From positions 1 through 64,000 of the forward strand of contig PLFY01000088.1 of NCBI GenBank assembly GCA_003138365.1: 64,000 nucleotides of DNA. Direction: 5' to 3'. How positions within the stretch are numbered: the stretch's first letter is position 1; every line of letters begins with the position of its first letter. Below, piece after piece: positions 48,493-52,087 of the stretch. The position numbers and the translations under genes were made by a program. The notes under the pieces are model-generated. The model was not told the DNA's origin, did not search any database, and saw only the letters and a list, made by a program, of their open reading frames with translations. Origin of the DNA: Acidobacteriaceae bacterium (lineage in GTDB: Bacteria > Acidobacteriota > Terriglobia > Terriglobales > Acidobacteriaceae).

Positions 48493-48503
48493 TGCGTGCT
48501 GGA

Positions 48504-49130
48504 TCAGCGAGTTTGCGGGATGCCGGCGGCCCTTCCAGCGGCAAAGTATATCTGCTGAAAGGTGCTGGAATCGAATACGCTCCGTGCCCGGGTTTTGCGC
48601 TGGATGTCTTCGACCAGGCGCGAAACTTCCCGATAGGTTTTCAACATTTTCGCTACAGAGACTTGCTCATTTTGCGACTGGCGTACAAAAGCATTGCATA
48701 GTTCCCGCATCACGCCTTCGACCGTGCCGTGGTGAATATTGGGGTCGGTTCCACTCAGGTCGCTGAGAGATTTCGATGCCCTGCGATGTACGGACTCAAA
48801 AACGAACCAATCATGAGGAGTAGGGTCGAGTTTGGCTGAGGCAACGGCGAGGCCAAGCTCAAAGGGCATATTGAATCGTGGAGTTGTGGGTGGAGTCCGG
48901 TCCAACTCGACCCTAGAGAGGTCGTGGATCGAATAACGGCAACTGCGAATCAGTTCCAGGATCTTATCAAGCCGGTTGCGTCCACCGGGGATTTCGATGG
49001 TAGCGCGAGGCTTAAGCCCCAGATGAATCAGGCCAGTAATATAGGCAAGATAGAGACGGCGAAACCGGTCGTCGTAAGGGATGTTCAGAAAGACGGACTT
49101 CTCAGAAAACTCAAGCGCTTGCGGTGGCAC
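48504..49130 (-). CDS. TIR-like/predicted nucleotide-binding protein, unknown function
   Basis: Likely GTG start 49130; KSVFLNIPYDDRFRRLYLAYITGLIHLGLKPRATIEIPGGRNRLDKILELIRSCRYSIHDLSRVELDRTPPTTPRFNMPFELGLAVASAK. Confidence 0.6.
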   Translation of the reverse strand: MPPQALEFSEKSVFLNIPYDDRFRRLYLAYITGLIHLGLKPRATIEIPGGRNRLDKILELIRSCRYSIHDLSRVELDRTPPTTPRFNMPFELGLAVASAKLDPTPHDWFVFESVHRRASKSLSDLSGTDPNIHHGTVEGVMRELCNAFVRQSQNEQVSVAKMLKTYREVSRLVEDIQRKTRARSVFDSSTFQQIYFAAGRAAGIPQTR

Positions 49131-49353
49131 GGTTTCTTGTCTTCCTCGCCGGACCGGCTTTCTTATTTGCCACAGTCTTCGTTGTCCTGGAAGATGCGGA
49201 CCTTGATTTGGGGGCGTGAACCTCTCGCCGCCGGGAACCCTTTTCATCGACAAGACGAATAAGGAAATCCTGCTCGGCTCTCGTTAAACCGAGTTCTTTC
49301 CCAATCTCGTCCAGAGTCGGCATCGGGGTCGTGATGATTACGGAGTGGGCCAT
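49111..49353 (-). CDS. Small basic protein translationally coupled to the TIR-like gene
   Basis: MAHSVIITTPMPTLDEIGKELGLTRAEQDFLIRLVDEKGSRRREVHAPKSRSASSRTTKTVANKKAGPARKTRNRATASA; overlaps 48504-49130 by 20 nt. Confidence 0.55.
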   Translation of the reverse strand: MAHSVIITTPMPTLDEIGKELGLTRAEQDFLIRLVDEKGSRRREVHAPKSRSASSRTTKTVANKKAGPARKTRNRATASA

Positions 49354-49514
49354 ATCAATTCCATGATACCGCTTTTCGTGTTTGTCGGCTCAGGAATTCC
49401 GTCGGCGTGGGGGCTCTATCCGCTCTGTAACGCCGCAGGGGTATGGTTGCATCCGCGAGTGCTGAACTCAATATCCCAGGCTGGCAATTCTGGGCTGGTG
49501 GATCGCTGCTGCGT

Positions 49515-50792
49515 CTAAATATCTATCGCGTGATCGGAAATCATATCGTCGCCTCGCCACAGTTTCTGTGCAGACCAGGATGCGTCCTGGGCTGACCAGA
49601 AACGATCCTCAGGCGGAAGGCCTAGCGGAAGAAACGCCGTGGAGCAAAGATAGAGACTGCCTGTGGAGATATAGCCCTCGCCGAGGTTCGGCTGGTGGCC
49701 GGCCAAGCCAATCTGAAGCCATCCGGCTTTGTCGAATGTACCCGGGGGCTCAAGCGTTCGATGAAGAACGGCAGAGAGTGCGCAACGCACCTGTTCGGGC
49801 GCGATGTCTTCAGGAAGCGCATGGCGAAGCGCAACATCGGCGAGAAGTTGGAATGCGCCGCCGCGGTATGGGATGGATCGGCCAATCACCGGATAAGAGC
49901 CGTCGGGGGCGATCAGGCGCTCGAGTATGTGTGCATAGCGGCTGGCGCGTGCGTTGACCGCGGGGATCATTGCCTTCCAGGCTTCTTCTTGATTGCCTAC
50001 TGATTCGAGAATGGCAAGCAAAAATGGCTGGATGACAAAGGAGTTGTAATAGTCCCAGTGGAAGTGGGGGCCATCGCCATAAGCTCCATCTCCGACGTAC
50101 CACTGCATGTGTTCGCGCAGGGCGTAATCGACCCGCGTGCGCTCCCAGGGCTGACCGAGGGCGAAGAGAGCAGCCTCAATGCCTGCCGCGAAGAGAAGCC
50201 AGTTGTTGGCGTGCGCCTGCAACGGCCGGGTCGCGCGAAGTGCGTCGGCCAATTGTGCGCGCACTGTTGAATCCAGCTTGGCATTCAGTTGCTGTGGAGC
50301 GCGGAGCACGGCAAGCGAGAAGAAGCCGGCGTCTACGAGGGTTTGACTAGTGGCGCCGAATTGCAAGTAGTCAGGGGATTTGGGGTCCACGCCGGCGGCG
50401 ATGGCTTGGCGGACTATTTCAAGATAGCCAGTCCGGAGTTCGCGCTCATTGGCAGTTGCAGGGCCATGCTCCAGGCCGCCATTCTCCAGCCACGGGGCTA
50501 TCCCGGCCAGGGTTCGCGCGAAGGCCTCCAGGTGCGTGGTGAGGCCGCGATTGCCAGCTCCTTCGCGGGACTTCTCAACCGGCATTGTGGTGCGCAGACG
50601 CCGTTGGCTGAGAGCGCTGAGCACAGGATGCGCCACGCGATGCATCTGCTCCAGCCAGAAACTGCGATCGTTGGATATGTCTGAGGCTGAGGCGGGGCCA
50701 GGAGCGGTCATGCCGGAGGCTGCGGCCCGGCCCGGAAATGCAGTTGCGAGTCCGGTGGCGATTGTGGACTTGATCAGGTCGCGGCGCAGCAT
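49515..50792 (-). CDS. DUF2264-domain protein with Tat-like signal
   Basis: MLRRDLIKSTIATGLATAFPG; HMQWYVGDGAYGDGPHFHWDYYNSFVIQPFL; YPVIGRSIPYRGGAFQLLADVAL. Confidence 0.82.
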   Translation of the reverse strand: MLRRDLIKSTIATGLATAFPGRAAASGMTAPGPASASDISNDRSFWLEQMHRVAHPVLSALSQRRLRTTMPVEKSREGAGNRGLTTHLEAFARTLAGIAPWLENGGLEHGPATANERELRTGYLEIVRQAIAAGVDPKSPDYLQFGATSQTLVDAGFFSLAVLRAPQQLNAKLDSTVRAQLADALRATRPLQAHANNWLLFAAGIEAALFALGQPWERTRVDYALREHMQWYVGDGAYGDGPHFHWDYYNSFVIQPFLLAILESVGNQEEAWKAMIPAVNARASRYAHILERLIAPDGSYPVIGRSIPYRGGAFQLLADVALRHALPEDIAPEQVRCALSAVLHRTLEPPGTFDKAGWLQIGLAGHQPNLGEGYISTGSLYLCSTAFLPLGLPPEDRFWSAQDASWSAQKLWRGDDMISDHAIDI

Positions 50793-50853
50793 TGAGGTTT
50801 ACCTTTGGAACCCGGACAGATTGACTCGGCGCGCGGGCGGCATTCCGGGGGAC

Positions 50854-51345
50854 TCAAAAGGCCAATTTGTAGATGTTGCCCTTGTTGTCCGTTGCCACGC
50901 CTTGACGGATGAGAGTGGGATTTTTGTCGTCCCCTCCTGAGTACTGGTACGCCTGAACATTGAGGATGGTTCCCTGATCACAGGGAATCACACCTTGTAT
51001 ACGAATTCGTTGCCCAAGTACATGGGCAACATAAAATCCATTTCCGTAAACAGTGTCCCAAGCGGCAACCAGATTGGACTGCGGCTGATTGTTGGCCGGA
51101 ACGCCGCCGTTCACTGTCGGGGCGGTGGACACACTGGTCCAGTTCCCTTTACATGCTTCGCCATTTGCAAGGGTCGCTGTAAAGCTGCCGGATTTAATGC
51201 CAGCCGAGGCTTTGGCGGCGAAGATAGGCGGGGGAGCCTGGGAGGCAAGTGGACCCTGGATGGGATAAAGCCGTCCGGCCGCGTAGCATCCGGATAGCAT
51301 ACAAACACACAACGCAGCAAGAGCAAGCGCGAGCTTCGTTTTCAT
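50854..51345 (-). CDS. Putative lipoprotein (paralogue of 51495-52028)
   Basis: MKTKLALALAALCVCMLSGCYAAGRLYPIQGPLASQAPPPIFAAK lipobox LSGC. Confidence 0.65.
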   Translation of the reverse strand: MKTKLALALAALCVCMLSGCYAAGRLYPIQGPLASQAPPPIFAAKASAGIKSGSFTATLANGEACKGNWTSVSTAPTVNGGVPANNQPQSNLVAAWDTVYGNGFYVAHVLGQRIRIQGVIPCDQGTILNVQAYQYSGGDDKNPTLIRQGVATDNKGNIYKLAF

Positions 51346-51410
51346 GGTTTATCCCTTGTCCGTTAGAAACCGGAAACTTCCAGATAGTTTCTGTGTCGAC
51401 GGAACCCTGA

Positions 51411-51468
51411 CCGCGCTCCTCAATGGGGATGTAAGGCGAGGGGTAGGCGGGGCCGATGTACTCGGCGC
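51411..51468. repeat. 58-bp exact copy of the gltA 3' coding end
   Basis: ccgcgctcctcaatggggatgtaaggcgaggggtaggcggggccgatgtactcggcgc identical to 52092-52149. Confidence 0.95.
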
Positions 51469-51494
51469 AAAACAGTTCAGCGTCCTGGGAGTCA

Positions 51495-52028
51495 TTACAT
51501 CACGAGTTTGTAGATGTTGCCCTTGCTATCCTGGGCCACGCCTCTCGCACCGTATCCTGCCGCACCGTTGTTATTCTCGTTTCCCAGGTCGTACCACTCC
51601 ACCTGGAGCATGGTCCCTTGATTTCCAGTCAGCTCTGTATGCACAAATAGGGGCTGACCTAGAACGTGGGCAACATAAAAGCCCTGTCCGTAGACTGTGT
51701 CCCATGCGGCAGCCATGCTGTTCGCTCCCGTCGCGCCGGCAGGAGCGCTGTCTGTTCCCGCCTTCTCGTATACCTGTTTCCACGTTCCTTGAAACTGCTC
51801 GCCATTTGCGAGAGTAATCGCCAGTTTTCCTTGCCTGTCATTCGAATGCGCGCCAACAGTGACGGGTTTGCTGAAGTTGGCGACGAGAGTGAATTTGGCA
51901 GCGTAGATGGGTGGCGGCGTCAGCGAGGCAAGCGGACCCTGGACCGGATAGAGATGGCCGAGGCTCTGGCATCCCGAAATAAAGATGGCGCTGAACAGGG
52001 TAAGTGTAAGAGAGAACTTGGCTTTCAT
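51495..52028 (-). CDS. Putative lipoprotein (paralogue of 50854-51345)
   Basis: MKAKFSLTLTLFSAIFISGCQSLGHLYPVQGPLASLTPPPIYAAK lipobox ISGC. Confidence 0.65.
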   Translation of the reverse strand: MKAKFSLTLTLFSAIFISGCQSLGHLYPVQGPLASLTPPPIYAAKFTLVANFSKPVTVGAHSNDRQGKLAITLANGEQFQGTWKQVYEKAGTDSAPAGATGANSMAAAWDTVYGQGFYVAHVLGQPLFVHTELTGNQGTMLQVEWYDLGNENNNGAAGYGARGVAQDSKGNIYKLVM

Positions 52029-52087
52029 AACGAATCCTTTTTTGCTGTAGACGCTGAGGGTGCGAAATAGTTCCGCTGGCAGGGTTC

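Follow-up and report, generated by a model that had tools for sequence, protein, structure and literature searches.

The window, a stretch of 64,000 nucleotides from an Acidobacteriaceae bacterium, encodes a two-gene module in which a gene for a small basic protein, predicted to bind DNA, precedes and overlaps a gene for a TIR-like predicted N-glycosidase. We read this pair, at roughly even chances, as a TIR N-glycosidase toxin or abortive-infection effector that would be held by a DNA-binding, antitoxin-like partner. The features of the two genes, which we call ORF1 and ORF2, are as follows.

49111 to 49353, minus strand: ORF1, small basic predicted DNA-binding partner and first gene of the pair (ATG start, 80 aa)
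49219 to 49314, minus strand: ORF1 residues 14-45, predicted two-helix HTH segment (LDEIGKELGLTRAEQDFLIRLV...), sigma-70 region-4-like (AlphaFold2 helices 14-21 and 25-45; profile matches)
49114 to 49233, minus strand: ORF1 residues 41-80, predicted disordered Lys/Arg-rich tail (pLDDT about 50)
48504 to 49130, minus strand: ORF2, TIR-like predicted N-glycosidase (GTG start, 208 aa)
48732 to 49106, minus strand: ORF2 residues 9-133, TIR-like Rossmannoid core (strands 9-16, 40-43, 64-70 and 107-112, helices 21-36, 53-62 and 87-101 in the model)
48858 to 48860, minus strand: Glu91, predicted catalytic residue, within PRFNMP(F/L)E(L/V)G
48525 to 48656, minus strand: ORF2 residues 159-202, two helices at the C-terminus that are not part of the TIR core (model secondary structure)

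An earlier note on this DNA had described a coupled two-gene arrangement, and we found both reading frames, their 20-nt overlap (49111-49130) and the peptides quoted from them. As in type II toxin-antitoxin systems, two small co-directional coupled genes stay together. ORF2 also has an alternative, longer TTG start at 49253. We consider 49130 to be the better start because protein similarity sets in at about residue 11 counted from the GTG and because relatives have a GTG or an ATG at about the same offset. A Shine-Dalgarno sequence was seen near a possible ORF2 start in 16 of 68 loci, several starts being allowed per locus. Production of a single protein by programmed frameshifting was ruled out, since the frame of ORF2 relative to ORF1 is not fixed (the three possible frames occur in 48, 18 and 9 loci), nor is the distance. 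An apparent fusion in L081 (597-aa frame) was likewise discarded as GC-rich read-out after a frameshift. Homologues with 27-77% identity are present in many species, and the dN/dS ratios are 0.04-0.20 for ORF2, which is under purifying selection, and 0.16-0.57 for ORF1. The distance matrices of ORF1 and ORF2 are correlated, with r 0.48 against at most 0.13 in 999 permutations, and, together with the homologues in many species and the dN/dS ratios, this indicates that the pair is more than a product of chance. With a limit of E 10, neither protein had a match in Pfam, PADLOC or NCBIfam, and with a limit of E 0.1 neither had one in PHROGs.

A scan of GTDB species genomes led to the identification of at least 574 ORF2 relatives, and the best 79 loci were retained. 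These best 79 belong mainly to Acidobacteriota, and also to Rokubacteria, Tectomicrobia, Nitrospirae and a few others. ORF2 relatives were present in 14 of 61 nearby genomes, in 68 of the 399 genomes of the class (17%), in 11 of 197 genomes of the phylum and in 15 of 95 genomes of another phylum, to which a Rokubacteria genome belongs. The pairing recurs in these other genomes. Within this clade, which was picked for its similarity to the window, ORF1 was placed directly upstream of ORF2 and on the same strand in 73 of the best 79 loci by a profile made from 12 ORF1 seeds, a few weak scores being accepted on position, and inspection of the reading frames by eye added five more (L052, L075, L079, L090 and L095). 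L056 is the sole case among the 79 loci where ORF2 has no recognisable ORF1, and in L034 the ORF1 is truncated and the ORF2 frame is open; both exceptions may be assembly errors. The host genome has two copies of ORF2 and exactly two good matches to the ORF1 profile, one beside each copy; neither an orphan ORF1 nor an orphan ORF2 was found in it. The pairing is thus near-obligate in the sampled clade. Beyond site-specific synteny, no third conserved gene was found beside the pair.

Across genomes the pair is patchy, sometimes multi-copy or tandem, and often broken. Besides the broken frames of L028 and L082 described below, ORF2 copies that are split or stopped are common elsewhere, a frequency that draft assemblies may inflate. 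The pair occurs in tandem on a single contig at L045:279-1600 and at L081:5378-6175 and 10027 onward, with at least one broken copy. Carriage by phages was considered and rejected: phage records gave no match and only one distant viral contig was found. Distant ORF2 relatives (about 30-36% identity) are present on rhizobial and Sphingomonas plasmids, where the upstream small basic gene differs from ORF1. In two of these plasmid loci (L160:4807-6479 and L161:4602-9150) the basic gene encodes a TGRF/TGQF-like motif, and downstream lies a gene for a restriction endonuclease or a RecB-like nuclease, an arrangement that is possibly a plasmid-borne defence version.

The TIR-like core that had been suggested for ORF2 is borne out by a confident AlphaFold2 model built on 76 family members (pLDDT 93.4, pTM 0.90) and by a fold search with TIR domains on top. 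The closest solved folds found with Foldseek in the PDB are the SPARTA TIR-APAZ proteins 8oz6 (E 2e-4) and 8i87, and the other leading matches are plant TIRs, AbTir (TMt 0.69), SARM1 (TMt 0.65) and TIR-STING. Among viral structures the best match is a CAP12/Pycsar-type TIR, and nucleoside deoxyribosyltransferases (NDTs) are also present. Direct comparison of ORF2 with the sequences of solved structures gave nothing meaningful. Using hhalign, the ORF2 family profile scored 41 (86%; 75% in a second version) against CAP12-PCTIR domains drawn from the same phylum, the controls being 60 column shuffles (best 31, then 18.7) and a reversed comparison (15). The scores were 27 (probability 17%) against deoxyribosyltransferases, 17 against TIR_2 and 15 against DUF4062. 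Of the two kinships that had been proposed for ORF2, that with TIRs therefore stands and that with NDTs is much weaker. In Pfam scans the window ORF2 matched neither PF10137 nor PF05014 (NDT); four of the 76 members matched PF10137 (best E 0.016), with a best score of 15.6 bits versus the gathering score of 24.7 bits.

Glu91 is invariant in all 76 ORF2 sequences, as are the surrounding PRFNMP and D124, and in the model it is located near the start of helix 87-101, after the third strand (64-70), as in TIRs. In the CAP12 alignment PRFNMPFELG of ORF2 falls on RxNVxFExG and SLSDLSG on PSDLxG. Counted on an alignment with the solved TIR-STING 9lmq, the glutamate of the CAP12 NVxFExG motif is residue 86 of that protein, which we take to be ElSTING because of its molecule name and residue numbers, and E86 is reported to be the catalytic residue of ElSTING (PMC12421889). 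ORF2 thus has an equivalent of the catalytic glutamate. Neither a lack of pairing nor a missing catalytic glutamate, two of the outcomes that the earlier note had named as refuting it, was therefore observed. TIR-class enzymes cut N-glycosidic bonds and TIRs specialise in NAD+ (PMC9503650), so that ORF2, judged from its sequence and model, is probably a NADase. The two C-terminal helices may form an oligomer or partner interface. Elsewhere in the host genome (G000), a frame at C34:62479-63249 matches both DUF4062 and TIR_2 and is possibly another TIR-type NADase.

We then consider the partner. In the AlphaFold2 model of ORF1, residues 1-40 are confident and the tail is disordered. Compared with the PDB, the ORF1 family profile matched sigma-factor region-3/4 HTHs (SigA, E 7e-6), below a higher-ranked match of 21 residues to 8vd6, 'CAP REPEAT'. 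Pfam Sigma70_r4 and Sigma70_r3 were found sub-threshold in 11 and 10 of 64 ORF1 members, other HTHs being also sub-threshold. The predicted helices and the sigma-factor matches agree with the HTH that the earlier note had seen in the small protein. The tails of the family contain on average 30% K+R and 5% D+E, and in three relatives with an unusual HTH-HU architecture (L041:4772-5059, L065:3480-3770 and L080:9539-9943) an HU domain (PF00216) replaces the tail, with E 1e-11, 4e-11 and 4e-22, respectively. Because of the HTH and of the HU domain found in the place of the tail, ORF1 very probably binds DNA. The tail is poorly conserved (18% mean identity), hence a toxin-neutralising segment is not obvious. 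No conserved operator showed upstream between close relatives, and the alignment was uninformative as to an operator palindrome, the upstream regions of four relatives being not alignable beyond the gene start.

In the genus, a conserved interval separates the citrate synthase gene from a NUDIX gene and hflX. The pair adjoins the citrate synthase gene in the window, L020, L028 and L082, and the NUDIX side in the window and L020; in L028 and L082 the ORF2 frame is broken and ORF1 is intact. The same interval is empty or holds other cargo in several relatives, so that empty and filled sites occur between the same two genes within one genus. The corresponding region of the window (48493-52087) is a site of variable cargo in the genus: empty, lipoproteins, a DUF2264-like gene or the TIR pair. 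Two tandem paralogous putative lipoproteins with the common motif LYPxQGPLASxxPPPIxAAK are encoded at 50854-51345 and 51495-52028 (minus strand), and relatives have similar genes in this interval. The adjacent NUDIX gene was ruled out as an ADP-ribose-clearing partner, since it is present in the genus with or without the pair, and we take its proximity to be coincidental. In other lineages the pair lies among different housekeeping genes, beside GerMN-like and racemase genes or beside lpxB and ABC transporter genes. The 140 nearest neighbours gave only scattered PADLOC matches, mostly generic, and by Pfam they are mainly housekeeping or metabolic genes rather than defence or mobile ones. A defence-island location is therefore not supported and the genome context does not help a claim of defence. 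The 25 families listed for the nearest neighbours include no CBASS or Pycsar family, and no pAgo or ThsA gene is among the neighbour families listed; the partner is ORF1.

We compared the pair with known systems. The CAP12/PCTIR TIRs (PF10137; TIR-STING of CBASS, PycTIR of Pycsar) share with ORF2 the TIR fold, the NVxFExG-type glutamate region and the SDLxG motif, and are its best profile match, yet the ORF2 family stays below the Pfam cut-off. Unlike these proteins, ORF2 is a stand-alone single domain, without a STING or cyclic-nucleotide domain, and its partner is a small predicted DNA-binding protein. SPARTA (short pAgo) also links a TIR NADase to a nucleic-acid-binding partner, but our pair has neither an APAZ domain nor an Argonaute gene. 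Type II RES-Xre modules (MbcTA, NatRT) likewise consist of two small genes, for an HTH-type partner and a NAD-degrading enzyme (PMC9503650, PMC11535050); in contrast, ORF2 is TIR-like and not of the RES/ART fold, and ORF1 has a sigma-4-like HTH with a basic tail or HU. DUF4062/Swarozyc, a demonstrated antiphage NADase, is another patchy TIR-like family outside the classical TIR models (PMC13174449), but ORF2 has no detectable profile kinship with it (the score of 15 above) and the fused domain of Swarozyc senses phage portal. The pair is described neither in the libraries scanned nor in the literature searched, which left most subscription papers outside. The enzyme class is known, and the combination of a TIR-like enzyme with a predicted DNA-binding partner appears to be new.

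In the toxin-antitoxin-like mechanism, in which we infer the NAD+ substrate, the toxicity, the neutralisation, the autoregulation and the trigger alike, ORF2 would be a stand-alone N-glycosidase of the TIR type, NAD+ being most likely its substrate and Glu91 its catalytic residue, and growth would stop. ORF1 would bind DNA via its HTH and basic tail, hold ORF2 inactive and probably repress its own operon; its loss or sequestration during infection or stress would release ORF2. We favour this reading because of the near-obligate pairing, with the partner gene first, adjacent or overlapping, and without orphans in the host genome; because of the TIR fold, the CAP12-TIR profile kinship and an invariant Glu91 that matches a known catalytic glutamate; and because of the HTH and HU fusions of ORF1. 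The patchy, multi-copy and broken copies, the empty and filled sites and the purifying selection point the same way, as does the precedent of RES-Xre, which are NAD-degrading modules with an HTH antitoxin (PMC9503650, PMC11535050, PMC8494770). Against it stand the variable ORF1 tail, L056 and L034, the lack of a visibly conserved operator and neighbours that are mainly neither defence nor mobile genes.

The main rival, which we hold to be possible though rather unlikely, makes ORF1 an activator or DNA sensor instead of an antitoxin: through its HTH, basic tail or HU domain it would recognise foreign, damaged or unusually packaged DNA and oligomerise ORF2 on it, switching on NAD+ cleavage. Partners with an HU domain or a basic tail indeed look like proteins that bind DNA in general rather than a particular sequence, a TIR NADase is coupled to the recognition of nucleic acid in SPARTA, which gives the top structural match, and the distant plasmid relatives have their basic small gene upstream and a nuclease gene downstream. 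However, the HTH is the most conserved part of ORF1, which is typical of a regulator, and the main clade has no defence-island context. A metabolic or regulatory role without killing, with ORF2 acting as a nucleoside or nucleotide N-glycosidase of the deoxyribosyltransferase type or as a maker of a cyclic-ADPR-type signal, is possible but weaker, and we judge it improbable. NDT is the second-best profile match, with its glutamate also on Glu91, NDTs occur among the viral structure matches, and the housekeeping surroundings and strong purifying selection would fit; but the CAP12 TIR score exceeds that of NDT, TIRs lead the PDB matches with NDT absent from the first 50, and a core metabolic role fits poorly with a distribution so patchy and with decay so frequent. 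A last reading, in which ORF2 would be a TIR-like protein without catalysis that serves as a scaffold or ligand sensor and modulates ORF1, a transcription regulator, seems to us very unlikely. The resemblance of the ORF1 HTH to sigma region 4 and the existence of inactive TIR/SLOG-class relatives that are sensors (PMC9503650) speak for it, and the invariance of Glu91 (76 of 76), with PRFNMP and D124, speaks against it.

With this pair we add a family of TIR-like enzymes that numbers at least 574 relatives, is missing from Pfam, NCBIfam, PADLOC and PHROGs, and has a near-obligate, probably DNA-binding partner. We tentatively raise the idea of a nucleoid-linked immune or suicide switch, in which an HTH/HU-type chromatin protein would directly gate a TIR NADase and a change in DNA state, such as phage takeover or nucleoid disruption, would lead to NAD+ loss. 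If true, this would be TIR activation without an Argonaute, a cyclic nucleotide or a fused phage-protein sensor. If active, the module would be the TIR equivalent of RES-Xre, or would show a new way in which DNA triggers TIR NADases.
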